A stretch of DNA of 64,000 nt from Archangium violaceum (lineage in GTDB: Bacteria > Myxococcota > Myxococcia > Myxococcales > Myxococcaceae): NCBI RefSeq assembly GCF_016859125.1, contig NZ_CP069338.1, forward strand, positions 12,527,501 to 12,591,500, in the 5' to 3' direction. Below, piece after piece: positions 3,836 to 21,826 of the stretch; within the stretch, counting starts at the first letter, position 1; each line of letters opens with the position of its first letter. The notes below the pieces were generated by a model. It searched no databases and was not told where the DNA came from. It saw only the letters and a list, made by a program, of their open reading frames with translations. Both the position numbers and the translations under genes were made by a program.

Positions 3836-3908
3836 TCCCCGATAGCTCAGCCGGTAGAGCGGGTGACTGTTAATCACTAGGTCCGAGGTTCGAGTCCTCG
3901 TCGGGGAG
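3836..3908 (+). tRNA. tRNA-Asn (anticodon GTT)
   Basis: A 73-nt cloverleaf. Acceptor stem TCCCCGA pairs with TCGGGGA, with discriminator G. The D-arm is GCTC..GAGC, the anticodon arm GTGACTGTTAATCAC carries GTT, and the T-arm is CGAGGTTCGAGTCCTCG. No CCA is encoded. It marks the border between host core genes and the BREX island. The 3' ends of tRNA genes are common integration sites, so this could be an attachment site, but I found no second copy of the tRNA 3' end by eye. Confidence 0.95.
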
Positions 3909-3951
3909 CTACCTGGGTCTGCACGCGAGCACGCAGGCCCGAGGGTTTCAA

Positions 3952-4185: not shown

Positions 4186-5169
4186 TTAACCGGCCACTGC
4201 ATCCGCGCTCTCCATCGACGCCGCGAAGGGGCACAGCGCAGGCACGCAGCCCCCGCAAGGCGTTGTGCGCGCGGCGCAGGCGTCCCCTTGAGCCACACGG
4301 TTTGACTTCGAGCAGAACACGTAGAGCGCCTGCTGCACGAACCTCGGCGAGTAACGTGGCAGGTCGGCGCGGAACTCGCGGAGGTCGATCTTCGCGGCCT
4401 GCTCGCGCACCCACCTCTCGCGCGCGTCGTACGTCCTGGGCGCGCCCGGATCCCGAAGCGCATCGGCCGCGCGCGCGACGTTCGTGTCGACCACGACCAA
4501 CTCGTTGCCGTCGACGGTTGGGAACCACGGCGTGAGCCCTGAAGCGAGCGCCGGCGTCGAGAGCGCGCTCACGAACATAGTCGCGAGTTTCCTCCCGACC
4601 CGGTGGATGCTCGCGAAGTGCTCGACGAGGAGCGCGGCCCGCTCTGTGGGTGACGACTCCACCTGGCACACGCGCTCAAGCAGCACGTTCACACCGCCTC
4701 CCTTCCAGAGCCGGAGCCATGCCGAGGTCGGGAGCTTGCCCATGTCGCCCATGCGGTTGAAGACGACGGTGGCGTCCTTCACGTGGCAAGGGACGCCAGG
4801 GCAGGTCTTGCAATCCACCCTCTCGTCCGTCTTCGTCACGTCGCAGCCCTTCTCGAACGCTTTGACGGAGCCAAGCGTCGGGCACGCGTGGCGCGTGGTG
4901 GCTCGCTTCACGCAGGCCACATCGGCGACGATCCGCATCGACGCATGCGGCAGCGACCGCTGCCGGCGCATGATCACCACGTCGCGCAACGCCTGGTACA
5001 TCGCGAGCGTGACGAAGAGACGGAAGATGGCTGCGTCAGTTCCTGCCGCGAGTTCGTCGGGCGCGACCGCGAAGGCGCCGACGCGCGCGGGGTCGCAGTA
5101 GAATGGGGCGGCCCATTCCTCGTGGCGCCCGAGGTACCATCGAACGGCGCCTCGGAGAGCTTCCTCCAC
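4186..5169 (-). CDS. HhH-GPD (EndoIII-like) protein with cysteine clusters, BREX-linked
   Basis: 327 aa, GTG start three bases after the brxL stop, so it is the last gene of the BREX operon. Residues ~188-203 (SIHRVGRKLATMFVSAL) match the helix-hairpin-helix of endonuclease III-type glycosylases, with Lys194 at the catalytic-lysine place. VVVDTNVARA puts Asp228 where the GPD aspartate is expected. The C-terminus has C298-x6-C305-x2-C308-x4-C313, one residue shorter in the last spacing than the C-x6-C-x2-C-x5-C [4Fe-4S] loop of EndoIII. A second cluster at C109, C120, C123, C128 is not part of EndoIII and may bind zinc or another Fe-S centre. I infer a DNA base-excision or modified-base-recognising enzyme added to BREX. 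The family assignment rests on motifs read by eye. Confidence 0.7.
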   Translation of the reverse strand: MEEALRGAVRWYLGRHEEWAAPFYCDPARVGAFAVAPDELAAGTDAAIFRLFVTLAMYQALRDVVIMRRQRSLPHASMRIVADVACVKRATTRHACPTLGSVKAFEKGCDVTKTDERVDCKTCPGVPCHVKDATVVFNRMGDMGKLPTSAWLRLWKGGGVNVLLERVCQVESSPTERAALLVEHFASIHRVGRKLATMFVSALSTPALASGLTPWFPTVDGNELVVVDTNVARAADALRDPGAPRTYDARERWVREQAAKIDLREFRADLPRYSPRFVQQALYVFCSKSNRVAQGDACAARTTPCGGCVPALCPFAASMESADAVAG

Positions 5170-5172
5170 GAC

Positions 5173-7212
5173 TCAGCTCCCCAGGACCTTCATCGCGGCG
5201 GTCTTCGCGTCGCCAAAGAAGATCGGGTCGACGTGCTCTATGATGTCGGCGCTCACGTCGAGGAAGTTCCGCTTGTTCTCGATGGGGATGAGGGCGCGCT
5301 TCGCGCCGTTGTCCTTCGCCACCTGGAGCGGCTCGGTGAGCGAGCGCAAGGGCTTGATATTCCCTTGGACGCTCATGTCCCCGAGGATGAGGAGCGCGGG
5401 GCTCACGGGCGCCTTGCGCAGCGCCGAGTAGGCCGCAACGAAGAAGGCGACGCCGAGCTCGGCCTCGACGCGGTTGGCGAGCAGGTCGATGACCTCGACA
5501 TGGAGGTCGGAGACGTCGAGGTCGCGTGCGATCCCCAGCTCCGACTTCTTCGTCTGCAGAAAGCTGAAGGCTCGCTGCACGGACTCCTTCATCGCACCCG
5601 CCACGCCGCCCGCGAGCTTCAACTTGCCCGTGCCGCTCGAAACGGAGACCTCGACCCGATAGAGGCCGACGGTCCCGTCGGCTGTGACGCCCGCGCTGTA
5701 GACGGTGCCAGGGGCGAGCGGATCGGTAGAGATGAGATCGCGGCCACCCTGTTCGGGCACACCGACGAACTTCTCGTCGCCGGTCGCGTTGTCCGAGTAG
5801 CTGAAGGACGTGTGGTAGTACTCGAAGGAGCCCATCTTCTTGAGCTGCTCCTTCACGCGGCGGCGGCCTTCGATGGCCAGCTCGAGAATCTCGCCGAGTT
5901 CCTCCTGCGTGATCTCGCCGTGCGGGAAGAGGATCTTCATCAGGCCCGAGACGGTCTTGCGCACCGCCTTGCGGTCGCGGGCATTGAGGTGCGCGCCGAG
6001 CGAGAAGTGGCGGTCGATGACCTCGGTGAAGTTGTGCTTCCTCATCTCGCGGAGCGCCTCGGCGAGGTAGTCCACGACGAAGCCGTAGTGGCTCGTGAAC
6101 ATCTCGTTGCGCATCTTTGGGATCTCCCAGCCTGGGAGGTAGAAGTGCATCCGGTCGATGAACGCCATGTCATCGCGGATGATGTCCGGCATCGGCGCGA
6201 ACAGGTGGCCGGTCTGCACCATCACGTCGACGGGCTGGTTCGTGTTGCCGAACATCGCGATGCTCGCGTCCCCTGAAACCGCTTCCTGCCCGCGCTGGAA
6301 GGTGCCCGACTCGCAGTAGGTCTTCATCGTCGTGATGACCTCCTTCGGCATCTTCTGGAGGTCGGCGACCTCGTCGAATCCGACGACGTCCCAGATCTGC
6401 ACCATGCCCTTCTGGCGGCCACTCATGTGGCCGAAGAGGTTGGCGACGGTGGTGCCGCCGGTGAGCAGCGCGGAATACGGCGAGACCTCCTGCACGACGT
6501 AGCTCTTGCCCGTACCGCGCGGCCCGAGCTCGACGAGGTTGTAGTTCCGCTCCGCGAGCGGGATGAGGCGCACGAGGAAGAGCAGTTTCAGTCGCCGCGA
6601 CATCTCGCTGGGCTCGTAGCCCATGCTGCGCATCATGAGGTCGAGCCACTCGTCGGTCGTGAACTCGCGTCGGACACGGCGGTACTCCTCGAGGTCGAAG
6701 GTCGCGATCTGGATGGGCGTGAGCTTGTCGATCCAGAACGGGTTCTTGCCCTTCGACTCCTCGTCGTACTCGAAGCGCATGTCGACCTGCGCCCAGACGC
6801 CGCCCATGACGAGGCGCTCGTAGTCGCGCACGTAGTGCTCGGGCACGTGGACGTTCTTGTGGCCGAAGTTCGTGACCTCCGCCCAGTAGTCCGAGTCGAC
6901 CAGACGCACCTTCACCTTGTCGATGAAGGTGTGGCGCCCGCGGTCCTTCACCATCGCCTGCGCCTTCATCGACTCGTCGGAGCGGATGTAGTTGTTCGCG
7001 AGGGTGTCGTTGACGACCTGGAGTCCCATCTGGATCGCGACTTCGTCGCTCGATGCGCAGTACTTCCCGAGGAGGAACTCGAGGACGAAGACCGGCACGT
7101 TGGCGCCGACCTTCACCTTTCGGACGAGGTCCTTGCGCACCACCTTCCCGGCGAACAGGCGGTTGACCTTGTCGTCGAGCGCATCTCGTGTCGGAGCTGC
7201 TCCGTGGCTCAT
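5173..7212 (-). CDS. brxL: BrxL, AAA+/Lon-like BREX effector
   Basis: 679 aa. The N-terminal BrxL domain (DALDDKVNRLFAG...) is followed by an AAA+ core with Walker A GPRGTGKS (230-237), Walker B VVGFDEVA (276-283) and sensor segment FGNTNQPV. The C-terminal third resembles the Lon protease domain (LLILGDMSVQGNIKPL), but no GPSAG-like catalytic serine is visible; the equivalent place reads ELGVAFFVAAYSAL. BrxL is the hallmark of type 1 BREX and a DNA-binding hexameric ATPase needed to block phage replication. It starts 3 bases after the pglZ stop and is followed at 3 bases by the HhH gene. Confidence 0.93.
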   Translation of the reverse strand: MSHGAAPTRDALDDKVNRLFAGKVVRKDLVRKVKVGANVPVFVLEFLLGKYCASSDEVAIQMGLQVVNDTLANNYIRSDESMKAQAMVKDRGRHTFIDKVKVRLVDSDYWAEVTNFGHKNVHVPEHYVRDYERLVMGGVWAQVDMRFEYDEESKGKNPFWIDKLTPIQIATFDLEEYRRVRREFTTDEWLDLMMRSMGYEPSEMSRRLKLLFLVRLIPLAERNYNLVELGPRGTGKSYVVQEVSPYSALLTGGTTVANLFGHMSGRQKGMVQIWDVVGFDEVADLQKMPKEVITTMKTYCESGTFQRGQEAVSGDASIAMFGNTNQPVDVMVQTGHLFAPMPDIIRDDMAFIDRMHFYLPGWEIPKMRNEMFTSHYGFVVDYLAEALREMRKHNFTEVIDRHFSLGAHLNARDRKAVRKTVSGLMKILFPHGEITQEELGEILELAIEGRRRVKEQLKKMGSFEYYHTSFSYSDNATGDEKFVGVPEQGGRDLISTDPLAPGTVYSAGVTADGTVGLYRVEVSVSSGTGKLKLAGGVAGAMKESVQRAFSFLQTKKSELGIARDLDVSDLHVEVIDLLANRVEAELGVAFFVAAYSALRKAPVSPALLILGDMSVQGNIKPLRSLTEPLQVAKDNGAKRALIPIENKRNFLDVSADIIEHVDPIFFGDAKTAAMKVLGS

Positions 7213-7215
7213 GGC

Positions 7216-9774
7216 TTACACTCCAAGTCGAACCGGGATATCGGTGGGCGATCGGTAAAGCTCCGCGTCGGTCGTCGGGTCCTGCACCACGACGCGCAGC
7301 GAGGCAACACTCTCGTCGCTCAGCAAAAAGGCGAGGGTCACTGGCTTGTTCGGCTCGAGCTTCACGGTGCCCGTGGCCCGATCGAACTGAGCGTCCACCG
7401 CCATGCCCACCGCGCCGACCTGCTTCCCAGCCGCCATCAACAGCGGCCGGACCTGGATGCCCGTCGCGCCGAGCAGCATCTGCTTCGCGCCGTAGATGAA
7501 CGTGACGCTGAAGATGCGGTTGGTCACCGCCTCGGGCAGACCGCTGGCCTCGAGCGGCTCTGCCGACGGGCGCGCCGAGTCGCGCGTCTTCGTGCGCACG
7601 GTCAACACTGGGATGACCATCTCCTGCAGGGACGGTCCGCCGTGGTGGAAGGCCAGGTCACCGCCCGCCTTGAAGACGCCTGTGGCCGCCGGGAACACCA
7701 GCTCGAGGTCCGAGGCATAGCCGAGCTGCGTGGCCGAGACGCGCACGCAGCCCGCCGACGTCGCACCGCCGCGCCCGATCCAGCAGCGCCGGTGCAACTC
7801 GACGCTGTCGCCGCCTGGCGCGTCGGTGCGCATCGACTCGTCGCGGTCGGTGGCGAAGAACAGATGCCCGTGGTCGGCACTCACCACCGCGTGCTCGACG
7901 CCCGCCTTGGCCAGCTTGCCGATAGCGAGCTTGAGGTTGTCGATGACGCTGTCCATCACCTGACGCGCCTGGAACGTGAAGCCGGTCTCGCCTGCGTGGT
8001 CGATCTCCTGGGACCGCACGAGGACGACCTGCGCGCTCTCGACCTTCTTCGCCAGCTTCGACGGCTGCAACGACAGCAGCTCGTCGAGTGCGAGGTCGAC
8101 CAGCTTCGGCACACGCGCGGCAGCGTGCTTCTTGCGGGCCAGAAGGTCGGGCAGGAAGGCGTCGTCGATGCGAGCGCCCAGCTTGTCCTTCTCCTCGACG
8201 ACCGAAAAGCTCGACGAGGCCCCGGGCATCAGTGCCGCCATGCCGATGGGCGTGATGCTTGGGAGCGCGCCTACCGCCGCACGCACAGCGACCTCAGAGG
8301 TCTTCGGCAGACGCTCGGCCAGCTCGACTCCCATCTCGAAGCGCATGGCGTCGACGAGAAAGTAGGCGACGGGCTTGGGCTTGGCGCTAACCACCTCGCT
8401 CCAGATGCGCGTCTGGTGCAGAGCGCTGGGCACCGTCCACCCGGCCTTGCCGAGGGCCTTGGTGAAGCCCTCGGCCATCGTGTGGACCGCGTCTTCGTAG
8501 GCGCGGCGCACGACCGCGAGCGGGCGCTCATCAGGGTCTTCATCGAGCTTCGAGACGACGAACTCGAGACGTCGCTGGGCCTGGTCGAGGCGAAACCAGC
8601 CGGACCCGGACTGCGTGACGTAGGCGTCGAGCCACGCCGCTGCATCTCCCGAGGTCTTCCCGACTGCTGCCTTCACTTGGACCGCTAAATGGCCGAGCTC
8701 GGCCATGCGCCGAGTGGCCTCCCACTGGGCCTTCCGAGCGACGTCACGGTCAAGCCAGAAGCTCTGTTCTCGCTTGGACACGAGCGAGAGAGCGCCCTCG
8801 AACTTGCCGTTCGCGATGAGATCACCGGCGTGACGGAGCAGCGCGCGCTCCTCGAAGCGAAACGTGTCGATGGAACCGAGCGCGCCGGGGGGTAGCTTGG
8901 CGTTCTTGAGCCCCAGCTCCTCCTCAACGCGGTCGGCGAGCGTCGCGTAGGTGTCGGCGTGGCCGGTGCGCAGGCGCCGGGCGAGCTCGCGCACGGCCGA
9001 CTCCTCGTCCTTCGTGGGTGGCTTGGCGACGCTGTCGAGTGAGGCGGGCGCGTCACACGAGAGGTCGAGGCGGAACTCGCCTGCGAGCACGAAGCGCAGC
9101 ACGATGGCGCGCAGCTTCGCGAGCGGCGAGTCGGCCACGAGGTCCAAGCCCAAGCGTGCCTTGACGAGCTTGGTCAGTTCGCGCGTCGCCTCCTTGCTGA
9201 CGATCTCGGCGTCGCGCGCGTCGCTCACGAGCCACGCCGTGAGCAGCCCATCGTTGCCGCTCGCATCGTGGAAGATGCTCTTCAAGATCGACGGCGGCTC
9301 CGCGCCCGAGTTGCCCGCCGCAGCGAGCGCGAGGTCCTCGTAGGAAACCTTGCGATCGAAGGGCAGCATCTCGTCGACGACGCCGAGCGTGTACTTCTGG
9401 AGCAGAACGTTCTTGGCGAGCTGCTTCAGCTCGGGCTTCCAGGTGCGACCGGCCTTCTCCAACTCCATCAGCACCGAGGCCTTCGCGTCATGGGCGAGGC
9501 CGGGGATGTAGACGACCAGCGCGTCGGGCTTGTCGCCGCTGACGAGGGGCTCGACGACAGCGCGAAGCTCGAACAGCGAGCCCGCGTACTCTGCGAGGCT
9601 CGCCTTGATGCCGGCGACGCCCACCGCCACGGGCTCGCTCGCCGCGCGCGGCCCACCGCGCACCTCATCGACGAAGGGTCGGAACTCGCCGCGCTCGTCG
9701 TACCAGACGACGACGCGACGGTCCTTGAGCTTGTCGGCGAGCTGCTTGGCCACGTAGTCGTGAAGCGGGTGCAT
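7216..9774 (-). CDS. pglZ: PglZ, BREX alkaline-phosphatase-superfamily protein
   Basis: 852 aa starting MHPLHDYVAKQLADKL. The start overlaps the pglX stop in TGATG; the frame continues upstream inside pglX but that part is antisense-like and rejected. The N-terminus carries RRVVVWYDERGEF, typical of PglZ. The phosphatase-fold core has VSADHGHLFF (about residue 633) after a CxV/FQARQVMDSV region, and the PglZ domain ends near EMVIPVLTV. PglZ is a core member of all BREX systems and is thought to hold the methyltransferase complex together; its chemistry is not settled. The length is normal for the family. Confidence 0.92.
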   Translation of the reverse strand: MHPLHDYVAKQLADKLKDRRVVVWYDERGEFRPFVDEVRGGPRAASEPVAVGVAGIKASLAEYAGSLFELRAVVEPLVSGDKPDALVVYIPGLAHDAKASVLMELEKAGRTWKPELKQLAKNVLLQKYTLGVVDEMLPFDRKVSYEDLALAAAGNSGAEPPSILKSIFHDASGNDGLLTAWLVSDARDAEIVSKEATRELTKLVKARLGLDLVADSPLAKLRAIVLRFVLAGEFRLDLSCDAPASLDSVAKPPTKDEESAVRELARRLRTGHADTYATLADRVEEELGLKNAKLPPGALGSIDTFRFEERALLRHAGDLIANGKFEGALSLVSKREQSFWLDRDVARKAQWEATRRMAELGHLAVQVKAAVGKTSGDAAAWLDAYVTQSGSGWFRLDQAQRRLEFVVSKLDEDPDERPLAVVRRAYEDAVHTMAEGFTKALGKAGWTVPSALHQTRIWSEVVSAKPKPVAYFLVDAMRFEMGVELAERLPKTSEVAVRAAVGALPSITPIGMAALMPGASSSFSVVEEKDKLGARIDDAFLPDLLARKKHAAARVPKLVDLALDELLSLQPSKLAKKVESAQVVLVRSQEIDHAGETGFTFQARQVMDSVIDNLKLAIGKLAKAGVEHAVVSADHGHLFFATDRDESMRTDAPGGDSVELHRRCWIGRGGATSAGCVRVSATQLGYASDLELVFPAATGVFKAGGDLAFHHGGPSLQEMVIPVLTVRTKTRDSARPSAEPLEASGLPEAVTNRIFSVTFIYGAKQMLLGATGIQVRPLLMAAGKQVGAVGMAVDAQFDRATGTVKLEPNKPVTLAFLLSDESVASLRVVVQDPTTDAELYRSPTDIPVRLGV

Positions 9775-12700
9775 CAGGCGTCTCCTCCCTCGGCGGCGGC
9801 AGCGGCCTTGCGACGGCCACCGCCCTTGCGCCCGGTGCTCTTGCCGCTCGCCACGGGCGCTTCGAGCAGGCTCTTCAGCGCCGAATTCACGGCGGGCGAC
9901 GTGCGCTCCTTCACGAGCTCGTCGACGCTCTTGGTCGGCGTCTTGCGGGCGGTCCACTTGCCGTTGGTGCCCTCGACCCAGAACACGTCCTCAAGCCCAT
10001 GGGCGATGGCGAGGCTGCGATCCTTGGCGCATTTCGGTACGACACGATCTGGCCACACGTGCATAGCCGTGTGGGACCAGTCGAACTCACCGCTCTCAAG
10101 CGAGTGCCACGCTTCGCGGCACTCGGTCTGCCACGCGCGCTGGCCTTGAAACAGACGCCATAGTGGCGCGCACGCCACAACAGTCCCATCGTCATGGTGA
10201 GGCGCCCAGAGGTTCGCCGCAATCCGCAGTTGCTCCGCGAACTGCTTCAATTCCTCCAGAAAGCTCTCTTGGCCTTGCAGCTCGCGCCGCTGGCGCGCGC
10301 TCTCACCCGCCGAACTGCGCTTTTCTGCGAGCACGGCTTCCTCATGCCGGATCTTCGGAGAGACGAAATCCTGCAAGACGGCGAACAGCGTTTCCTGGGT
10401 CATGGTCGGGTAGTAGAGCCAAACCGAATACCGGGAGCTCTTGCAGCCCATCTGCAGATACACAGGGGCTTTTCTGCGGGCGTCTTGGTATCGCCTTACA
10501 TGAAGCTCGAAGAAGCGCTTCGCGATCCAGGAGCGCAGATCGCGCTCCTGTCCGCAGAGCGCCCTCTCAATCTCTTCGAATACCGGATCGGCGCGCTCAC
10601 CCCAGCGGGCGGCTAGCGCGTTCTCTATCGCAGTGATGATGTCTGACGCATGTCCCGCGTCATCGACAAGGACGACCGGTTTGCTCGCCTCGCGCCGTGC
10701 AGCTCCTGCGGACGGACGCGCGAACAACTCTTCGAGCGTGAGCGTCCTGTCGAGCGCGGGGCGCGCATCAGCGCGCCACCGAGCGAAGGCAATACCGATC
10801 GCAAAGCTCAGCTCCTTGGCCGCAGCCTCCTGGAGCTCGGCCTCGCCTGCCGACAAGTCCGTACTGAGGACCTCGGCAACGGTCGACGCCGAGGCGCCCA
10901 GAAGGTGCGCGACAAGCTCAAGCTTTCGATCCGAAATGTACGATTTCTTGGTGAGCTGCCGGCGCGCACCAAGCTCGGCAATAGCGCGCTCCATCAGCCC
11001 TTCAGGACTCATTTCATAGAGCCGCAAAGCGTCGTCGCGACGCGCCTGTTCCAGGACCGGGTACGAGTTCGGGTGCGGGCCGACGAGGTCGTCCAGTAGC
11101 GACGACTCTTCGTCAGCAAGGGAATAGTACGTACGAACCGTCTTCTCGATCGCCTCGTTGTGCCGCAGAACCTTGGCGAAGGCGTTCAGCTTCCATCGGG
11201 CAAGATCTGTCGCCGCTTCATGGATGCCGATCGCGTTGCCTACGAATGTGCCGGCGAACGTAGCCGCCGTTTCGTCCATGGAGGCCAGGTGCCAGTAGAC
11301 GGAGGCGGACTCTACGACGCGCGCCAGGGTGTCGTCGTCAGCATCTACCAGGGGTGCGGGGATCTGGTTCAGTAAGCCAGAGCGATATCGCTTCGCAGCC
11401 GAGCCCGAGAAGGCGTTGTCGCCGGAGCCAACGAAGCTCTCGGTCACCATCTTGAACACGCGCGTGTAAGCACCGCCGAGATAGGCCAGGCACTTCTCGC
11501 GGCTGGCGCACTGAATGGCTATGCCCGTGCCGCTAAAAGCTGCACCAGGCGGCAAGACGCGCGGACTGAAGTCACTCGTTGTTCGCTCCGGGTAGGTGAG
11601 ACCCTCGGTGAAGTAGTATTCGCTGTGGTTGAGCCAGGGCGTCCAATCCGCTGACCCTTGGAGGCGAAGCCGCTTGTCAGCCAGGTACGCTTTTAGGAGA
11701 TAGCCGTTCGCTCCCCAATCAACTGTAAGGGTGAGATCCTCCCAGAACGGCTGATACTCGCCGCCCTTCGCGATCGGGACCCATCGACCAGCCGAACCGC
11801 CAATTACCTCCCACCGAAGACGCAGAAACCGAAAATCATCGGTGGTCTGCATTCCATGGCGTGCCGCCCCGCCGGACTCAGCCAGAGGCGGAAGCGAAAC
11901 AATCTTTTCCAAGACCGCCTTCGGCAGCCAGTAACAGAGCACCTGCAGTGGAACTCGCCGAAACTCCGCTACCGAGTGAGTCCACTTCGTGACGTCTCGG
12001 CGATCTTCGCGGTGGAGAAAGTGGGCGCGAACCGCGGTCTCTTTCTCGCGCGACTCCAGCACCCGATAGAAAGTGGACTCTCCACTGCGCCCTGGCTCGA
12101 GAACGAACGCAGCAGCCTCGACCATCGCCGCATCAAGGACCCCGTACCCGAGATCGAGCAAGACGGCGGGCGGCGCCGCGTCGAGCAGAACATGCTGGCG
12201 GAACCATTTGAAAGTGTCTACCGCGAGAAAATTCCGCGACGTGATTGCACCAACGAGCCCTCCTGGTGCCAGGAGCTCGGTCACTCGCGAAACAAATGCG
12301 AGGCCGATGTCCGTCTTGAAGTTCGAGTACGCATCGTCGAAGTACTTCTTCCCGCGGGTTGAAGCCTTTCCGAATGGCGGGTTCATCAGCGCGACGTCAA
12401 ACCGCGTCTGCAAGAGGTCAATCAGGGCTACGCCATGAGCTGCGTTCTCGCTGAACAGGCGACGGCGAGTGCCTACAAGACCGGCCGCGGCTTCGGAGTA
12501 GCTTGCGAGCTGCTGAACGAGTCTTTCCTCGGCAACATGCCAGAAGTCCGACGAGCCCTCCGCGGTCTGATCAAAAAGTCTCCCCTGCCGCGAGGACGAC
12601 TCAGCATCGGACACGAGTCGACGCATCTCTCCCTCGATGCGAAGGAGCACACCGAGTTCGGACGCCAGCTCAAGGCGTTCACAGATGGCTTCAAAAAGTA

Positions 12701-13952
12701 TCCGCAACGGAGGCGGCGAGACGCTCTCCGCAAACGCGACGCGCAGCTCCGATTCCCCTGGCATCGGTTCTGCCACGACAATATTGGTGCGAGATATGGG
12801 CTCACGGCACTCGCGCCGGACTCCGTTGCGCGTCCACCAGGATTGCGCACGCATCCAAAGGGCGAGCTCTGCGATCTGTGCGCAGCGATCATCAATATCA
12901 ACGCCGAAAAGATTGCGGCGGAGGATTAGCGCCGGCGCGGCAGCTCGCAGCTCCTCGATGTTCGGATAGTCGCTTCTGAGGGTGGCTCCCCCGAGTTCAG
13001 GCGCCCAGTCTGCGCGCGCCCAGGCCTCCTCGTAAATGATTGTCAGAATGTCAAATGCATACAGGAGAAAGTGGGCCGACCCACACGCGGGATCGAGGAC
13101 TCGAATATCTCGTGGATCTTTCGCGGCTCGCGGCTCCCACTGCTCATTGCGAGGAACAACGAGGTAGCCGCATTTCGTGAGCAACGACGACGCGGCACCG
13201 TACATCTCCACCCACTGCCGGGCTAACGTGTTGTCGACAAGGAACTCAACCACGTACCGGGGTGTAAAGAACTGATTGCGGATGGCTAGTTCGCGAGAAT
13301 CGCGCGGGGCCTGCGATTCCTCACGCATGTCACGCCGCTCTTCGGGCGAGTTGAAGTACTGATAAACCCAACCGAGCGTTTCATCCTCCTTCCACGCAGG
13401 CGCAAATTCGGGCTCGTTCAGCAGTGCGAGCAGCGACTCGAACGTTTGGCGCCTGGGCCAAAGCACCGACGAGGGATCCCGCCGGTCGAAGAGGACCTTC
13501 ACCTCGGTCGATAGCTCATCGAAGAGGGACTCGATGTAAAGCCGGTAGCCGGCGCTGTCGGGCAGGAGCGGCAGGCCCGGCGCCATGCCGCAGAACTCGC
13601 GGTAGCCCGCTGACTGCTCGCCCTTGGTGATGCACTCCTGCACCAGCTCGCGAGCCTCGAGCATCTTGAGGGCGACGAAGCGGTTGAGCGTGGTGAACGC
13701 GGCGTCGCGCAGGTAGTCGGCGACCGAATCCGCGGCATTCATCCCAGCGGAGCGCTTGTGCTCGATGGCGGCAACGATGCGCTCGCGCGCGAACGCTTGC
13801 CTCGCCGAAAGATGCCCCCCCGCCTTCGCCGCGACAGTTCCGTCACGATGGACATCAAAGTCGCCCTCGAGCTGGGCGGAGAAATCCTCCTCGAGTAGCT
13901 TCCGCGCCTTCTGGGTGGCGCGTTCGATGGCGTTGCGTGTGTCCTTGTCCAT
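9774..13952 (-). CDS. pglX: PglX, BREX adenine-specific DNA methyltransferase
   Basis: 1392 aa starting MDKDTRNAIERATQK. SAM motif I is VLDPACGSAHFL (about 285-296) and the catalytic motif IV is ALMNPPFGKAS (NPPF at ~524-527), which marks an N6-adenine methylase. A helical N-terminal region precedes it, and a long C-terminal target-recognition and coiled region follows, ending in a basic tail (GRKGGGRRKAAAAAEGG). PglX marks host DNA at a non-palindromic site so that BREX ignores it. The gene is somewhat longer than many type 1 homologues (~1200 aa). Codon use in roughly 10.4-13.4 kb appears less GC-rich than in brxC or pglZ. Confidence 0.93.
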   Translation of the reverse strand: MDKDTRNAIERATQKARKLLEEDFSAQLEGDFDVHRDGTVAAKAGGHLSARQAFARERIVAAIEHKRSAGMNAADSVADYLRDAAFTTLNRFVALKMLEARELVQECITKGEQSAGYREFCGMAPGLPLLPDSAGYRLYIESLFDELSTEVKVLFDRRDPSSVLWPRRQTFESLLALLNEPEFAPAWKEDETLGWVYQYFNSPEERRDMREESQAPRDSRELAIRNQFFTPRYVVEFLVDNTLARQWVEMYGAASSLLTKCGYLVVPRNEQWEPRAAKDPRDIRVLDPACGSAHFLLYAFDILTIIYEEAWARADWAPELGGATLRSDYPNIEELRAAAPALILRRNLFGVDIDDRCAQIAELALWMRAQSWWTRNGVRRECREPISRTNIVVAEPMPGESELRVAFAESVSPPPLRILFEAICERLELASELGVLLRIEGEMRRLVSDAESSSRQGRLFDQTAEGSSDFWHVAEERLVQQLASYSEAAAGLVGTRRRLFSENAAHGVALIDLLQTRFDVALMNPPFGKASTRGKKYFDDAYSNFKTDIGLAFVSRVTELLAPGGLVGAITSRNFLAVDTFKWFRQHVLLDAAPPAVLLDLGYGVLDAAMVEAAAFVLEPGRSGESTFYRVLESREKETAVRAHFLHREDRRDVTKWTHSVAEFRRVPLQVLCYWLPKAVLEKIVSLPPLAESGGAARHGMQTTDDFRFLRLRWEVIGGSAGRWVPIAKGGEYQPFWEDLTLTVDWGANGYLLKAYLADKRLRLQGSADWTPWLNHSEYYFTEGLTYPERTTSDFSPRVLPPGAAFSGTGIAIQCASREKCLAYLGGAYTRVFKMVTESFVGSGDNAFSGSAAKRYRSGLLNQIPAPLVDADDDTLARVVESASVYWHLASMDETAATFAGTFVGNAIGIHEAATDLARWKLNAFAKVLRHNEAIEKTVRTYYSLADEESSLLDDLVGPHPNSYPVLEQARRDDALRLYEMSPEGLMERAIAELGARRQLTKKSYISDRKLELVAHLLGASASTVAEVLSTDLSAGEAELQEAAAKELSFAIGIAFARWRADARPALDRTLTLEELFARPSAGAARREASKPVVLVDDAGHASDIITAIENALAARWGERADPVFEEIERALCGQERDLRSWIAKRFFELHVRRYQDARRKAPVYLQMGCKSSRYSVWLYYPTMTQETLFAVLQDFVSPKIRHEEAVLAEKRSSAGESARQRRELQGQESFLEELKQFAEQLRIAANLWAPHHDDGTVVACAPLWRLFQGQRAWQTECREAWHSLESGEFDWSHTAMHVWPDRVVPKCAKDRSLAIAHGLEDVFWVEGTNGKWTARKTPTKSVDELVKERTSPAVNSALKSLLEAPVASGKSTGRKGGGRRKAAAAAEGGDA

Positions 13953-13963
13953 CTCTCGGGCCC

Positions 13964-16900
13964 CTATTGAACGATGACCTTCTTGCCAGCGCCGATGAGG
14001 CGCGCGCACTCCTCGCGTACCCCGTCGAGTGCAGCTTCGAGCTGCTCTTCGGTCTCGACGCCTCCGGCGAAATAGCTGCCGACGCTCACGGTGACGACGC
14101 GCTCGCCGTCGATGATGCGTCGCAGCTCGGCGATGGCGGCACTGAGGCGCCCGCCGCAGGCGTCGCGGTCGGCACGGAGCTGCGGGATCGGCACGCGGCC
14201 CTCGTCGCGCTTCTGCCCGCGCTCGAACGGCTCCGCGAGGCGCCGCTGCTGGCCCTCGTCGATCTCCGTCCAGCCCGGCGTCTTCACGAGCTTGTCGAAG
14301 GCCTTGGTGTACGCGGCAACGCGGGCGTCGAGCGCCTCGTCGAATCGCTTCTGGTACTCCGTCTCCAGCGCCCTGGTGTGTTGCTCGATGGTGGGCAGCT
14401 CCTTGAAGAAGGTCTCGCGCTGCAAGAGATCTTCGAGCTCGGTCGCGCGCGTGCGCAGGTCGTCGGAGATGTCCGCCTCCTGGCTCAGAAAGCTCCACAG
14501 GCTGCTCTGCGCCTTGCGCGCGCTCTCGAGGTCGTGGAGGCGCGGGTCGCTCAGCACCTGCTCCAGCTCGACGGCGCGCTTGATGGCGTCCTTGATGGCG
14601 CGGTGGCTCGTGTTGAAGGTCGCGATGGCGTTGTCTTCGGAGCCACGCAGGATGGCCTTCATCTGGCCGATGGCGCCGTCGAGCACTGCGCCACCGGGCA
14701 GTCGATGAGCGGTGAGCGTGCCGAGCGCCGAGGCGACGGTGTCTTCGTTGCGCGCGACCTCCTTGCGCAGCTCAGCGACAATCGCGCCGGCGTTCAGCTC
14801 CTTCACCTCGCTGCCGAAGGTGTCCTTGAAGGCCTCGGAGGCCTTCACCAGCTCCTCGAACTCGATGCCCTTCTTCGGGCGGAACGACGCCTGCCGGAAC
14901 AGGTTGTTGTTCGAGAAGGTGTCGCGCGCCTCGATGCCGGTGACAGTGTCGAGCGTCTGCCCCTTGCTGGTCGCCTCGATCTTGCCGGCGCGGAGCAGCG
15001 ACAGGACGAGCAGGCGCACCGCTTCGAAGTCCCAGCCAAACGGCTCCTTGGCGAACTCGTCGGTGAGGTAGCGACCGCTCGCGGTGTCGCCGTAGTTGGC
15101 GCGCTCCTCGATGCGGTCGAGCACCTCCTTGAGCGGGCCGCTCTCGGTGCGGAAGACGGTCTTGCCTTTCTCGTCGCGGAGCAGGCCGATGCTGCCGAAC
15201 ACGCTGGGCAAGCCCTGGAGGTTTTCGGCGGTGAAGAGCGCGTCGGTGCCCTTCTTCACGTCCGTTGCCTTGGCGGCGGCCTCCTTGAAGCGGTCGAAGA
15301 CCTCGGGCAGCACGGTGCCGAGCACCTCGGCGACCGTCTTGCCCACGTCGACGGCGCGGTCGCTGGGGCTGCGGTCGTTGCCCCGGAAGTAGATGCGGCC
15401 CGAGAGCGCCGCCGCCTTGAACAGCCGACGCAGCTCGTCGCCGTGGCGGCGCAGGCGAACGCGCTCCTCGGCGATGAGGGCGGGCGTGTCCTCACCCTTG
15501 GTCTCGCGCTCCTTGCGCGCGAGCATCTCCTTCGACCGGAACAGCTCGACGGTCTCGCGGTCGATGGAGTCGGTGAGCGCGATGGCCCAGAAGACGTGCT
15601 TGCGCTCCTGCTGGCTGCGCGTGCGCAGCTCGGCGGCGAGGCCGTCGAAGTCCTTCCCGTCCTCGGCGAGGTGGACCTGGAACATCATGTCGCCCGCCGT
15701 GAGCTCGCGGCCGTGGATGGCGAGGCCCGCCTTGAAGGTCTTGGTGTCGAAGAGCGTGTGCGAGGGCTGCGGCTGCCAGAAGCCCAAGAGCACTTCTTGG
15801 TAGAGGCGGTGCGAGTCGCCTGGCTTCGGGCTGATCCCGTTGCGCAGGCGCTCCCAGTCGTCCTCGGCGGGCGTGGGGATGCGGTAGCCGTCGTCGCCGT
15901 GGCGCACCTGGTGGGCCGCTTCGAGCGCCCGCAGGGCCTCCTTCACCGAGGCGAGCTGCGAGTCTCCTCCGACGCTGCCGTGCAAGGCAGCCGAGATGTT
16001 CTCCGCGCTGCGGTGGACGCTCTTCACGTACTGGAGGAGACAGATGACCTTGGCGACCGGCTGAGCGAGCGGGTGGTCGACCATCTTCGAGATGGCGGCG
16101 ATCTTCGCGCGCACCTCGGAGCCGATGTTGCCCTCGACGAGGTCGTAGACCTGATCGAGCCGCACGAGGTCGCCGACCGCGCCATCGGCAAGGTTCACCG
16201 CGGGGTTGATGAGGAGTTGCTGCGCGAGCTTGATGATGGTGCGGTTCGCACCGCCGACGTGCTTGCTGGCGCCGCCCTGGGTTCGCAGGCCAGAGACGAC
16301 CTGAATGATGAGGTCGATCTGGTACGGCAGCAGCGGGTAGAGGTCAATGAAGGCCTCGCGCGTCAGTTCGGGGAGCTTGATGTCGGCGGTGAGCCGTGTG
16401 TGCTCGGTGAGGCGTCCCCGGTGCTCGTCGAAGAGCTTCCCGAGTGCAGTCTGCGCGGTCGCGTTCTTCGAGAGCACGCGGCGGCTGGTGACCTCGGAGA
16501 TGTCGCTCGGCTCTAGGTGGACCTGCAGCGGGAAGCGGTCCATCAAGCGGGCCAGCTCGATCTTCTTGTCGTCGAGGCCGGAGACGAGCTCGCCGAGCTT
16601 CTCCTGCGACGTGACGACGACCCAGTGCTTGCCACGCCCCTTCACGCCGAGCTGCTGCACGATGGCCTGCAGGTCGAGCATCTTCTGGACGTCGCGGGCG
16701 ACGAACTGGCCGACCTCGTCGACCACGAAGATGAGCGAGAGCCCGGGCTTGCGCCGCTTCATCAGCTCGCCAGCGCGCTCTGCGAGCTTGCCCGGCGTGA
16801 TGTCGGCCTTGTTCTTGACGGCCTTCACCCACGAATCAGCGACCGGGTAGGTGTCGGGGTCGAGGCTGTGGAGCACGCGGCTCGCCTCGGAAAGAGCGAA

Positions 16901-17509
16901 GGCGACCTTGCCCTTCTCGCTGGACCACTCCTTCTTGAAGAGGCGCTTGTACTCGTCCTCGAACTTCTGAAGCTGGCCCTTCTCCTCGAGGCCGATCTCC
17001 AGCTCCGAGAGATCGAGATCCTTCGCGTAGCCGAGGCTTTGGAGGAAGAGCCCGTACATGATCTCGGTGAGAGTCTGGTTGCCGCTGCGGATGCCTCGGT
17101 CGGTCGAGACGTCGAAGATGACCGCGTGCGTCGGGATCTTCTCGTTGATGGCCTTGAGCAGGACCTGGAGCTTCTTGTCGCCGGCGCGGTCCGCGAAGCG
17201 CTCGGCGGCCGACTCGCCCGCAACGGTGCGGTTCGCGACGGAGAGGCCGAGCATCTTGGCGAAGCTCGACTTACCGGAGCCGAAGAAGCCCGAGACCCAG
17301 ATGGAGACGCCGTCGGTCGGCTTGTTCGGAGCTTCGCGGTACGCCTCGAAGATGCCGGTGTAGTGCGTGCGGATTGCGTCCGTGATGACGTACTCGTTGA
17401 TTTCGTCGCGGATGATCTCTTCGTCAGTCTGGTCGACCTTGATGACCTCTTCGATACGACGGTGAATGTCGTTCGCGAACAGGGTCTTGATGGGCGTCGT
17501 CATCGTCAT
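13964..17509 (-). CDS. brxC: BrxC, large BREX ATPase
   Basis: 1181 aa starting MTMTTPIKTLFANDIHRRI, which is the usual BrxC N-terminus. Walker A is GFFGSGKSS (74-82), and the region LSLIFVVDEVGQFVA carries Walker B. Long helical and coiled stretches rich in Glu/Arg fill the C-terminal half. BrxC (PglY family) is an essential ATPase of BREX. The start lies 5 bases after the brxB stop, and the stop (TAG) is 11 bases before pglX. A longer reading frame upstream of 17509 overlaps brxB and is not supported. Confidence 0.93.
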   Translation of the reverse strand: MTMTTPIKTLFANDIHRRIEEVIKVDQTDEEIIRDEINEYVITDAIRTHYTGIFEAYREAPNKPTDGVSIWVSGFFGSGKSSFAKMLGLSVANRTVAGESAAERFADRAGDKKLQVLLKAINEKIPTHAVIFDVSTDRGIRSGNQTLTEIMYGLFLQSLGYAKDLDLSELEIGLEEKGQLQKFEDEYKRLFKKEWSSEKGKVAFALSEASRVLHSLDPDTYPVADSWVKAVKNKADITPGKLAERAGELMKRRKPGLSLIFVVDEVGQFVARDVQKMLDLQAIVQQLGVKGRGKHWVVVTSQEKLGELVSGLDDKKIELARLMDRFPLQVHLEPSDISEVTSRRVLSKNATAQTALGKLFDEHRGRLTEHTRLTADIKLPELTREAFIDLYPLLPYQIDLIIQVVSGLRTQGGASKHVGGANRTIIKLAQQLLINPAVNLADGAVGDLVRLDQVYDLVEGNIGSEVRAKIAAISKMVDHPLAQPVAKVICLLQYVKSVHRSAENISAALHGSVGGDSQLASVKEALRALEAAHQVRHGDDGYRIPTPAEDDWERLRNGISPKPGDSHRLYQEVLLGFWQPQPSHTLFDTKTFKAGLAIHGRELTAGDMMFQVHLAEDGKDFDGLAAELRTRSQQERKHVFWAIALTDSIDRETVELFRSKEMLARKERETKGEDTPALIAEERVRLRRHGDELRRLFKAAALSGRIYFRGNDRSPSDRAVDVGKTVAEVLGTVLPEVFDRFKEAAAKATDVKKGTDALFTAENLQGLPSVFGSIGLLRDEKGKTVFRTESGPLKEVLDRIEERANYGDTASGRYLTDEFAKEPFGWDFEAVRLLVLSLLRAGKIEATSKGQTLDTVTGIEARDTFSNNNLFRQASFRPKKGIEFEELVKASEAFKDTFGSEVKELNAGAIVAELRKEVARNEDTVASALGTLTAHRLPGGAVLDGAIGQMKAILRGSEDNAIATFNTSHRAIKDAIKRAVELEQVLSDPRLHDLESARKAQSSLWSFLSQEADISDDLRTRATELEDLLQRETFFKELPTIEQHTRALETEYQKRFDEALDARVAAYTKAFDKLVKTPGWTEIDEGQQRRLAEPFERGQKRDEGRVPIPQLRADRDACGGRLSAAIAELRRIIDGERVVTVSVGSYFAGGVETEEQLEAALDGVREECARLIGAGKKVIVQ

Positions 17510-17514
17510 GGTCC

Positions 17515-18093
17515 TCAGAAGATCTTCGGGCGGTAGTTGTGCTCCGCGTCGAGCACGCCCATGAAGCGCAGGCCTGCCGCGCCATCGAGGTCGCCGGGGT
17601 AGAAGAGAACGGTTGGAACGTGGACGCGGCCCTTGAGCTGCTCGAGCAGCGAGAAGGTGCGGTACACGGGGAACAGCGCGCCGGTGCGCAGGATGAAGAC
17701 GATGTCGTGGAGCGGGTCCCCATCCTCCGGGAGCTGCGACGCGACGAGGTCGACGAGCGACGACTCGCCCTCGGAGAGCACAGCGTGGACCGTCTCGACC
17801 ACGGTCTCGGTGCCGAGCTCGCGCTCGACGTCGAACCACTCAGGCAGCGGGCGCTGCAGGCGCATGGCGGCGTCGAGGCACTGGGCCAGCGAGATGCGGT
17901 GAACGCGCTTGCCCTTCTGTTCGAGGCGAGTCTCCAGCAGCTTCACTTGCTGGCGCAGCGGGAACTCGTCCTCCGGGTCATAGCGGAAGATCGCGTAGGG
18001 CATGTCGTGGTACGCGCTGATGCGTTGCCGGGGGTCGGGCAGCTCGAGGACGGGCTCAAGGTTCTGCTTGATGCGGTGTTCGAGGTCGCTCAT
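17515..18093 (-). CDS. brxB: BrxB, BREX protein
   Basis: 192 aa starting MSDLEHRIKQNLEPVLEL, overlapping the brxA stop (ATGA). The sequence shows the family's conserved middle (YAIFRYDPEDEF) and C-terminus (VPTVLFYPGDLDGAAGLRFMG...YRPKIF), typical of the DUF1788/BrxB family. BrxB is a small core protein of unknown biochemical role found directly upstream of brxC in type 1 and related systems. No catalytic motif is visible. Confidence 0.92.
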   Translation of the reverse strand: MSDLEHRIKQNLEPVLELPDPRQRISAYHDMPYAIFRYDPEDEFPLRQQVKLLETRLEQKGKRVHRISLAQCLDAAMRLQRPLPEWFDVERELGTETVVETVHAVLSEGESSLVDLVASQLPEDGDPLHDIVFILRTGALFPVYRTFSLLEQLKGRVHVPTVLFYPGDLDGAAGLRFMGVLDAEHNYRPKIF

Positions 18094-18875
18094 GCAACCA
18101 TCCTCTCTGCGTACTCGGTGGTCGTGTTGCAGGGCAGCGAGAGCTGCACGAGGCTGCCAGCGACCTGGTATTCGAGCTTGCGGTACTGATGGAGCCGCAG
18201 CAGTTCGTGCTCGACGTCGGAGGGGCGCATGAGGAACAGGCGCCACTCGGCCGAGGCGACGAGCTTCGACGGGCTCAGCTTCGCGTCGCGCATCGCGTGG
18301 AGCAGGTAGAGGAAGCTGCGCTCGGGTAGGTGGAACGAGACGAACTCCTTGGCGACCGAGCCGCGCAGGAGGCCGAAGTCGACGGCCATCTTGAGCAGGC
18401 CCGCCGCCACGCGTTTGGTGGTCTGCTCGGACCACGCGTGCTCGGTTGTGCCGCCACGCTTGCCGATGTCGCCCAGGTACTTCTCGACGTCCTCGGTGTG
18501 GACGCGGAACGCGCCGCCGTCGTAGGCGCTGAAGAGCCAGCTCTCGAGGAAGTCGCGGACGAGGAACTCGTCGCGAGTCATGTGCCAGAGGAGCAGCGGC
18601 TTCCACTCCTCGATGGGCAAACCGCGCTTCGCCAGCACGACGAGGGGGCGGTCGCGGCGGTCGGGGTCAAAGCGACGGTTCAGCACCTTGGCGACGTCGC
18701 GGAGCCATGTGGCGCTCTTCGCGCCGATGAAGTTCTGCTCACGCAGGCGGTCGAGGTTCTCGCGCTTCGAACGCTCGAAGTCCCACGCCGCGAACACGGC
18801 GTAGGTCTCCTCGATCATCGCGCCCTTCACGACGGTGAAGGACGAGGCGACGTTCGCGCGCGAGCCAGCCTTCAT
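18090..18875 (-). CDS. brxA: BrxA, NusB-like BREX protein
   Basis: 261 aa starting MKAGSRANVASSFTVVKGAM, overlapping the brxE stop (ATGA). It contains the DUF1819/BrxA pattern, including FAAWDFERSKRENLDRLREQN and LLLWHMTRDEFLVRDFL. BrxA homologues have a NusB-like fold and bind nucleic acid. It is the first of the universal type 1 genes here, but is itself preceded by brxE and a regulator, which is not the textbook type 1 order. Confidence 0.92.
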   Translation of the reverse strand: MKAGSRANVASSFTVVKGAMIEETYAVFAAWDFERSKRENLDRLREQNFIGAKSATWLRDVAKVLNRRFDPDRRDRPLVVLAKRGLPIEEWKPLLLWHMTRDEFLVRDFLESWLFSAYDGGAFRVHTEDVEKYLGDIGKRGGTTEHAWSEQTTKRVAAGLLKMAVDFGLLRGSVAKEFVSFHLPERSFLYLLHAMRDAKLSPSKLVASAEWRLFLMRPSDVEHELLRLHQYRKLEYQVAGSLVQLSLPCNTTTEYAERMVA

Positions 18876-19796: not shown

Positions 19797-20252
19797 TCAT
19801 AGGCGGTTCGTCTCGTCGGCGCGCTCCGCCATCAGCTTCGCCCACGCCGCCCGCTGCTCCACCCAGCGCCCGGCGTGGGCCACCGCCCGGAGGGCCCGCT
19901 CGCTGAGCGGCTCCACCCCATCCACCGCCTCCAGGTGGAGCACCTGGTCCTGCAGGTCCGGCGCGAGCAGCAGCAGGTCCAGCAACTGCGTCACCCGAGC
20001 CCTCGTCAGCCCCAGCCGCCGAGCTACCGTTGCCCGGTCCGGAACCAGCCCCCGGTCGATGGCCCCCTGGATGTGGTGCGCCAGGGCGAGCATCCGGGCC
20101 ACGAGCGCCGGCCGGCGAACGGGAGCTGGCGGCGGGGGTGGCGGGGCCTCCTGGAAGACCACGCGCTTCTTCCGCTTCTCGCGGAACAGTGTCCCCACCA
20201 GCACTCGGCGATCGGCGGGCTGCGACTTCTCCTCGGGGGTGGCGTCGCTCAT
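19797..20252 (-). CDS. ParB-like HTH protein of the recombinase operon
   Basis: 151 aa starting MSDATPEEKSQPADRR, ATGA overlap with the recombinase stop. After a basic, proline-rich linker (PPPPPPAPVRRP), residues ~70-105 read VPDRATVARRLGLTRARVTQLLDLLLLAPDLQDQVL, a helix-turn-helix resembling the KorB/ParB HTH. It probably binds DNA near the recombinase, as a directionality or repressor-type partner; this is inferred from linkage. No nuclease or NTPase motif is seen. Confidence 0.65.
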   Translation of the reverse strand: MSDATPEEKSQPADRRVLVGTLFREKRKKRVVFQEAPPPPPPAPVRRPALVARMLALAHHIQGAIDRGLVPDRATVARRLGLTRARVTQLLDLLLLAPDLQDQVLHLEAVDGVEPLSERALRAVAHAGRWVEQRAAWAKLMAERADETNRL

Positions 20253-21826
20253 GCCGCAACCTCCTGTCCCTCAGCCCCCGGGGCAGAGGCGCCTACCTCG
20301 GGGTCCGCGGCGAAGTTCACGAGGTGCACCTCCACCTGCTCGCCCTGCTCGTCCACCACCACCTTCTCCACCAGCGCCCGGAGGAGCCGCCCCCGGTTGG
20401 GTGCCGTCAGCACCTCCCACACGCGGGCGAAGTCCCCAAGGGCCCGAGCCACCCACTCCCCCTCGGCGCGCTGTTCCTCCAGCGCCTCCAGGGTGCGCTC
20501 CACCTCGGCCAGGTTCCCCTCCAGCACCGCCAGCCGCTCGCTCTCCTGCTCCAGACGCTGGGCCACCGCCTCGCGCGCCCTGCCCTCCACCTGCGTCAGT
20601 TCCGCCACGTACCGCGCCACGCTGGTCGAGGCCTTTGCAATCTCCGCTGGCATCTGTGCCCGACGCTTCTTCAGCCCCTCTCGCCGCACCTGGAGGTACT
20701 TCTCCAGCGCAGCTCGCGCCTCCGCCACCAGGGTCCCGTCCGCTGTCGCCTCAATGATGCGGGCGATGACGTACTCCTCGATGGCGGGCGCCGGCAGCGC
20801 CTTCACCGGACACGCCTCCTTGCCCTGCTTGTCGCGCGTGGTGCAGCGGTAGTAGCGGTACTCCTTCTGCCCCCGCCGAGTGGAGCCGGGCGTCATGGCC
20901 TCCCCGCAGGCTCCGCAGCGCAGCAGCCCTCGCAGCACGTAGGCCGGGTTGAGGCCGCGCGTCCCCACCGCCTTCTCCCGCCCCTCCAGCATCCGCTGGA
21001 CCCGCTGCCAGCGGGTGCGCTCCACCAGCGCCGGCTGCTCCCCCTCGAAGAGCTCACCCCCGCTCTGCATCAACCCCGCGTACACCGGGTTGCGCAGCAC
21101 CCTGCCCACCGCCCCCTTCGTCCACCCGAGCGCCTTCTTCCCCCTCCTCACCCGCGTCGGCTTCGGCAGCAGCTTCTTCTCGTTGAGTAGCCGCGCCACC
21201 TGCCCCAGGCCCCCGTGCTGCTGGTACAGCTCGAACACCTCCCTCACCACCTCCGCCTCCAGCTCGTTCACCTCCAGGCGCTTGTCCCGCACCTCGTACC
21301 CCAGCGGCACCGGGCCCCCCGTCCACTTCCCCTTCCTCCTCGCCGCCGCCATCTTGTCCCGCGTCCGCTCGGCGATCATCTCCCGCTCGAACTCCGCGAA
21401 GCTCATCAGCATGTGGAGGGTGAGCCGCCCCATGGCATCCGCAGTGGAGAAGTTCTGCGTCACCGACACGAAGGAGGCTCCCGCGGCGTTGAACCGCTCC
21501 ATCACCTTCGCGAAGTCCAGCAGTGAGCGGCTCAGCCGGTCCACCTTGTAGACGACCACCACGTCCACCTTGCCCGCCTCGAGGTCCGCCAGCAGCCGCT
21601 GGAAGGCGGGGCGCTCAAGGTTGGCGCCGGTGAAGCCCCCATCATCGTACCGCTCGGGCACGAGCACCCAGCCGGGCTGCCGCTGGATGTAGGCCGCGCA
21701 CGCCTCGCGCTGCGCCTCCAAGCTGTTGAATTCCTGCTCCAGCCCCATGGAGGTGGACTTGCGGGTGTAGATGGCGCACCGCTTCGTCTCGTTGGGGGCG
21801 GGTGCCTTCGGTTGTCGCCGCTTCAT
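20249..21826 (-). CDS. Large serine recombinase (phage integrase)
   Basis: 525 aa. The N-terminal resolvase domain holds the catalytic serine in IYTRKSTSMG (Ser24) and the arginines of VYKVDRLSRSLLDF. The recombinase domain follows (GYEVRDKRLEVNELEAEVVREVF), then a zinc ribbon (LRCGACGEAM ... YYRCTTRDKQGKEACP) and a coiled C-terminus (RQRLEQESERLAVLEGNLAEVE). This architecture catalyses unidirectional attP x attB integration. It lies in a five-gene minus-strand cluster, overlapping its neighbours by 4 bases on both sides, and is the most likely integrase of the prophage to its right. Confidence 0.93.
   Translation of the reverse strand: MKRRQPKAPAPNETKRCAIYTRKSTSMGLEQEFNSLEAQREACAAYIQRQPGWVLVPERYDDGGFTGANLERPAFQRLLADLEAGKVDVVVVYKVDRLSRSLLDFAKVMERFNAAGASFVSVTQNFSTADAMGRLTLHMLMSFAEFEREMIAERTRDKMAAARRKGKWTGGPVPLGYEVRDKRLEVNELEAEVVREVFELYQQHGGLGQVARLLNEKKLLPKPTRVRRGKKALGWTKGAVGRVLRNPVYAGLMQSGGELFEGEQPALVERTRWQRVQRMLEGREKAVGTRGLNPAYVLRGLLRCGACGEAMTPGSTRRGQKEYRYYRCTTRDKQGKEACPVKALPAPAIEEYVIARIIEATADGTLVAEARAALEKYLQVRREGLKKRRAQMPAEIAKASTSVARYVAELTQVEGRAREAVAQRLEQESERLAVLEGNLAEVERTLEALEEQRAEGEWVARALGDFARVWEVLTAPNRGRLLRALVEKVVVDEQGEQVEVHLVNFAADPEVGASAPGAEGQEVAA

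Follow-up and report, generated by a model that had tools for sequence, protein, structure and literature searches.

The last gene of a BREX-1 operon in Archangium violaceum encodes a protein that, judging by its predicted structure, is a divergent member of the HhH-GPD superfamily. Members of its family were found at the ends or in the middles of unrelated defence operons. The protein might be a portable iron–sulfur base-excision enzyme that serves several anti-phage systems as an auxiliary effector and attacks the bases of invading DNA, a reading whose chances we put at just short of even.

The gene and its operon

The analysed stretch of 64,000 nucleotides (hereafter, the window) contained a complete BREX-1 set upstream of the HhH-GPD gene, in the order brxA, brxB, brxC, pglX, pglZ and brxL. 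All of the following features are on the minus strand, in window coordinates:

18090..18875 (-): brxA (PADLOC BrxA)
17515..18093 (-): brxB (PADLOC BrxB)
13964..17509 (-): brxC (PADLOC BrxC, 2209 bits)
9774..13952 (-): pglX, adenine-specific methyltransferase (PADLOC PglX; NF033452 BREX-1 PglX, over the cut-off)
7216..9774 (-): pglZ, 852 aa with the Met codon as start (PADLOC PglZ, 1336 bits)
5173..7212 (-): brxL (TIGR02653, 997.8 bits against a cut-off of 628; PADLOC BrxL)
5177..5182 (-): Shine-Dalgarno-like GGGGAG inside the 3' end of brxL, 7 nt before the GTG (from the sequence)
4186..5169 (-): gene of the Cys-rich protein with predicted HhH-GPD fold, last of the BREX operon (open reading frame, AlphaFold2 model, VIA-align, dN/dS)

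The open reading frame and the GTG start 3 bases after brxL, both named in the original prediction, were present in the sequence. The brxL stop codon TGA (5175–5173) was separated by a gap of 3 nt from the GTG (5169–5167, minus strand) that starts the 327-aa protein. Compared with five relatives, the gene had a dN/dS of 0.20–0.30 and is therefore under purifying selection.

A tRNA-Asn gene (window 3836–3909) was located just past the HhH-GPD gene, and a serine recombinase (20249–21826) past brxA. From these flanking genes, the BREX and HhH-GPD operon may be a mobile island. A search of the window for att repeats of such an island found no convincing one; a 12-bp copy of the 3' end of tRNA-Asn at 23762 was rejected as no better than other chance 12-mers. 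The same genome encoded a second BrxL (G000:C1:12661248-12663185, L113), 36% identical and about 130 kb away, without an HhH gene.

Predicted fold

The AlphaFold2 model of the window protein, built with an input alignment of 36 relatives, had a pLDDT of 91.5 and a pTM of 0.90, and contained the six-helix barrel, HhH and Fe-S domains of the HhH-GPD superfamily. Its best match in VIA-align was endonuclease III (1orn_A; Z 12.4, 198 of 214 residues, 4.1 Å), closely followed by archaeal 8-oxoguanine glycosylases, HhH-fold queuosine salvage enzymes and MutY (Z about 10). All 50 VIA-align matches listed had the HhH-GPD fold. Foldseek matches were weak (best E 0.022) and pointed to MutY and OGG1. Sequence searches retrieved no usable relatives from PDB, Pfam, NCBIfam, PADLOC, PHROGs, plasmids or phages. 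The Pfam HhH-GPD model reached one of 12 members, below threshold (E 0.039), and none of the PADLOC models matches the family. Profile alignment with hhalign of the family against Nth of related genomes gave an E-value of 7e-5 and a probability of 63%, with the Lys, the Asp and the four Fe-S cysteines aligned. Since the family profile matches Nth and an HhH-GPD fold is seen in the model, the resemblance in motifs is not due to chance. The EndoIII-like HhH fold of the original prediction was thus recovered by the very comparison with Nth and MutY that it had proposed.

We also considered a housekeeping Nth that had moved beside BREX. This was rejected, as the genome already carries two Nth genes and MutY and the family is about 10–15% identical to the known structures matched by VIA-align. 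With Nth and MutY encoded elsewhere in the genome, a housekeeping role is unneeded.

Catalytic residues and cysteine clusters

The three motifs reported earlier, HRVGRKLA, VVVDTNVARA and C-x6-C-x2-C-x4-C, were all found. The corresponding features, with conservation among 36 aligned sequences, were:

4786..4884 (-): second Cys4 cluster, C96/C109/C120/C128 (invariant in 36/36; not in the aligned Nth sequences)
4588..4590 (-): codon of K194, the counterpart of the catalytic lysine of Nth, which is K121 in the L056 Nth (hhalign; invariant in 36/36)
4486..4488 (-): codon of D228, equivalent of the Nth catalytic aspartate (hhalign; D in 36/36, N230 in 35/36)
4231..4278 (-): loop C298-x6-C305-x2-C308-x4-C313, probable [4Fe-4S] site (invariant in 36/36; aligned to the four Nth cysteines)

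The G-x-K loop of the HhH and the catalytic Asp, which mark the HhH-GPD superfamily, were therefore present and invariant as K194 and D228. The counterpart of K194 in Escherichia coli Nth is K120. The context of D228, D-T/S-N-V, was nearer to MutY of the same genome (DGNV, read at L103) than to Nth (DTHV). The Glu that precedes the Gln motif in MutY was replaced by A, T, M or G. The Nth pattern C-x6-C-x2-C-x5-C was not found either, the last spacing being x4 in the window protein and longer in subfamily B (x7-x2-x7 in L020). The catalytic surroundings were mixed, with an Nth-like Lys and a MutY-like D-x-N in the absence of the MutY-type Glu.

The second cysteine cluster, described in the original prediction as having no EndoIII counterpart, was indeed missing from the Nth proteins aligned. 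The insertion that contains it follows the helix region of Q59/D63 and precedes the GDxGK motif; the nearby C123 was variable. Further positions invariant in 36/36 were Q59, D63, R139, G144, K145, R276, Q279, N290 and R291. The conserved residues argue for an active enzyme of the glycosylase/lyase type with two metal sites, and it is from them that we infer both the metal content and the activity.

Distribution and phylogeny

With the window protein as the query, relatives were detected in 11 of 195 Myxococcota genomes, the window's own included; with the alignment as the query there were 12, one of which was represented by a 46-residue fragment. A scan of 84,980 species yielded 32 loci, mainly from Myxococcota but also assigned to Planctomycetota, Nitrospirota and Pseudomonadota, although the assignments of MAGs among them may be wrong. 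The sequences formed two subfamilies, A (19 rows, including the window) and B (17 rows, 32–38% identical to the window protein). In the tree the genomic contexts were mixed: neither the two BREX copies nor the Pbe copies were sisters, and the DUF499 copies were scattered.

A contig from a viral collection (L104, 1-9176) contained an HhH gene with 62% identity. ORFs near it read as a Vsr-like nuclease and a C5 DNA methyltransferase, both by motif only, and as a TIR-like protein. The contig has the look of a defence island from a bacterium and not of a viral genome.

Association with defence operons

In a leave-one-out analysis, in which the gene panel was taken from the other loci and about 10 kb was examined, 34 of 35 loci contained recurrent defence genes as opposed to none of 14 controls; the controls were loci around canonical Nth/MutY-type genes rather than random windows, the panel itself came from the family's own neighbours, and the near-identical Druantia loci L020, L044 and L045 inflate the count a little. 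This association backs the anti-phage role put forward in the original prediction.

Subfamily B was found with Druantia type I genes. DruA was present in 16 of its 17 loci, an accessory position that applies to subfamily B and not to the window copy. In L045 the gene order was GHKL-ATPase, DruA, HhH, DruB, a 685-aa protein, DruD and DruE. The 685-aa protein between DruB and DruD (L020, 12420-14477; L045, 11568-13625) had no Pfam or PADLOC match, and the GHKL ATPase upstream in these two Druantia-I-like operons showed a weak resemblance to MzaB.

The partners of subfamily A were more varied. They comprised BREX-1, a DUF1156 methyltransferase with a DUF499 ATPase (systems related to BREX, PMC12839542), PbeA/PbeC-like genes with a D12 methyltransferase, McrC with IetA/IetS, and an N6/N4 methyltransferase with GmrSD_N and HEPN. 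In two loci (L013, 3263-9293; L035, 3953-9919) the PbeA/PbeC-like genes and the D12 methyltransferase were accompanied by an MTaX1 protein, which hints at a form of the phosphorothioation-linked Pbe system that relies on methylation. The gap between the HhH gene and the preceding gene was −4 nt for DruA, −1 nt for IetS, −4 nt for HEPN, −4 nt for DUF499, 3 nt for a PbeD-like gene and 3 nt for brxL; at other loci, 100–300 nt lay between the two genes.

Relationship to BREX

The original prediction had the gene extend BREX, and proposed a search for it next to other brxL genes. Nine Myxococcota genomes encoded a full BrxL; the gene was located beside brxL in one of them, the window's own, and in none of the eight others, so that it does not recur beside BREX genes as a core component would. 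Most relatives accompany Druantia-I or methyltransferase–ATPase systems, and the BREX-extending role did not hold up as a general one.

A second BREX-linked copy (L025) was located 7 kb downstream of brxL. Its HhH gene was 73% identical to that of the window and its BrxL 97%, and the DNA similarity of the two BREX loci ended at the brxL stop codon. The HhH gene of L025 lies behind a methyltransferase–GmrSD–HEPN cassette and an inverted HerA gene, and groups with L031 in the tree. Since this copy is on another branch although the BrxL proteins are 97% identical, the gene must have joined BREX at least twice. The co-occurrence in one of nine genomes and the tree together rule out a BREX-specific component. 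The HerA gene of L025 is on the opposite strand (6582-9842), in the interval that separates the BREX/HEPN cassette from the HhH gene, and a 375-aa ORF without a Pfam match comes after it.

Proposed role

The exchange of one gene among at least six kinds of defence operon points to a function that is useful to all of them. As the base-excision effector proposed above, the protein retains the Lys and Asp typical of bifunctional glycosylase/AP-lyases as well as the endonuclease III-type Cys4 loop, probably with a [4Fe-4S] cluster, and an insertion in its six-helix domain would provide a further Cys4 metal site. Co-translated with the main defence system, the enzyme might flip a base of the invading DNA out of the helix, be it non-canonical or unprotected, excise it and then nick the abasic site. 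Phage replication would be halted, or the nick would serve as an entry point for the host system. By analogy with Brig1-3, the removal of modified bases from phage DNA is plausible.

The genomic association fits an attack on phage DNA as well as the protection or repair of host DNA. The enzyme could repair host DNA in which the defence system or the infection has left lesions or wrongly modified bases, in the manner of Vsr or of the Methanothermobacter G/T-mismatch glycosylase that is encoded beside a methyltransferase. An active site like that of Nth and MutY would suit such a task, and so would the gene on L104 near a putative C5-methyltransferase and Vsr-like nuclease (motif only). However, the neighbouring methyltransferases are mainly of the adenine or N4 type, which pose no deamination-mismatch problem, and the partner systems share no chemistry that would yield one lesion. 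We consider this role unlikely. The host's own methylation could instead serve as the self mark: the enzyme would then excise an unmodified base, probably adenine, at a site protected by the neighbouring methyltransferase. MutY excises adenine, and the D-x-N-V at D228 is MutY-like. In subfamily A, the majority of loci encode a DNA methyltransferase (PglX, DUF1156, D12 or N6_N4), and restriction enzymes that act by base excision exist (PMC10273834). Against this stand the Ala/Thr in place of the MutY-type Glu and the need for several different methyltransferases to protect one site, and we rate such restriction a little lower still than host repair. Both of these alternatives are lowered by the 16 Druantia-I loci, which have no panel methyltransferase and nonetheless retain the same catalytic residues; for the whole family, this lessens the likelihood of a function that depends on methylation by the partner system.

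The protein might also dispense with catalysis. As a sensor or adaptor, a two-metal HhH-GPD fold would probe DNA damage, modification or redox state and recruit or license the main system. This would agree with the invariance of the extra Cys4 cluster and with the coupling of the gene to regulatory or ATPase subunits of differing systems. Yet the catalytic Lys and Asp do not vary between subfamilies whose identity is only about 35%. A protein that does no more than bind DNA would have no need of such conservation, and we rate the sensor as the most improbable of the roles weighed here. Base excision from invading DNA is our preferred reading.

If the protein does excise phage bases, a second fold, that of endonuclease III and MutY, would enter base-excision immunity, and the family would illustrate how bacteria close the loophole left in BREX and restriction systems by the modified bases of phages. 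The presence of the gene within or beside the operon in 16 loci also offers a handle on Druantia-I, the mechanism of which is, to our knowledge, not known.

Comparison with known systems

With Nth and MutY the family shares the fold, the catalytic Asp, the Lys (as in Nth), the region of the intercalating-Gln motif and the C-terminal Cys4 loop. It differs from Nth in the last spacing of this loop (x4, not x5, in the window protein), in an insertion of about 60 residues that holds the second Cys4 cluster, and in being about 110 residues longer. The D-x-N-V is common to MutY and the family, whereas the MutY Glu is absent from the latter. Nth and MutY are encoded in housekeeping loci, the family in defence operons.

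No paper linking HhH-GPD proteins to BREX, to restriction-modification and phages, or to anti-phage defence was found in the open-licence PMC literature, and earlier notice elsewhere is possible. We tentatively regard the family as a new class of anti-phage base excision built on HhH-GPD, a view we hold with somewhat more doubt than the role itself. The class would have two metal centres and serve BREX, Druantia, DUF499, Pbe-like and IetAS systems, possibly as a restriction glycosylase for unprotected or hypermodified bases. Phage HhH-fold proteins of base hypermodification (thymine pyrophosphorylase, the helical domain of 5-hmdU kinase) gave weak fold matches in a viral library (E 0.37-2.2), below significance.

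The fold of PabI differs from HhH-GPD. The likeness of PabI-type restriction glycosylases to the proposed role lies in base excision as a means of restriction (PMC10273834). Brig1 and Brig3 are anti-phage proteins of the uracil-DNA-glycosylase superfamily, and relatives of Brig1 often occur near BREX/Pgl, where their proposed task is to deal with phages that overcome BREX by means of modified bases (PMC11078745, PMC13160076). The window protein resembles Brig1, Brig2 and Brig3 in its proposed role, in which one auxiliary protein excises bases of phage DNA, and Brig1 relatives in the proximity to BREX/Pgl. It belongs to no sequence family in common with the Brig proteins, of which Brig1 and Brig3 have the uracil-DNA-glycosylase fold in place of HhH-GPD; the HhH-GPD fold is not described in the Brig1-3 and PabI papers. 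The family's genes are appended to core operons as are the auxiliary effectors of BREX and DUF499 systems (HNH, GmrSD, PD-(D/E)XK, HEPN and OLD-TOPRIM), the survey of which mentions neither a glycosylase nor an HhH protein among BREX auxiliary genes (PMC12839542). In contrast to these effectors, the HhH-GPD gene is also carried by Druantia and Pbe-like operons.
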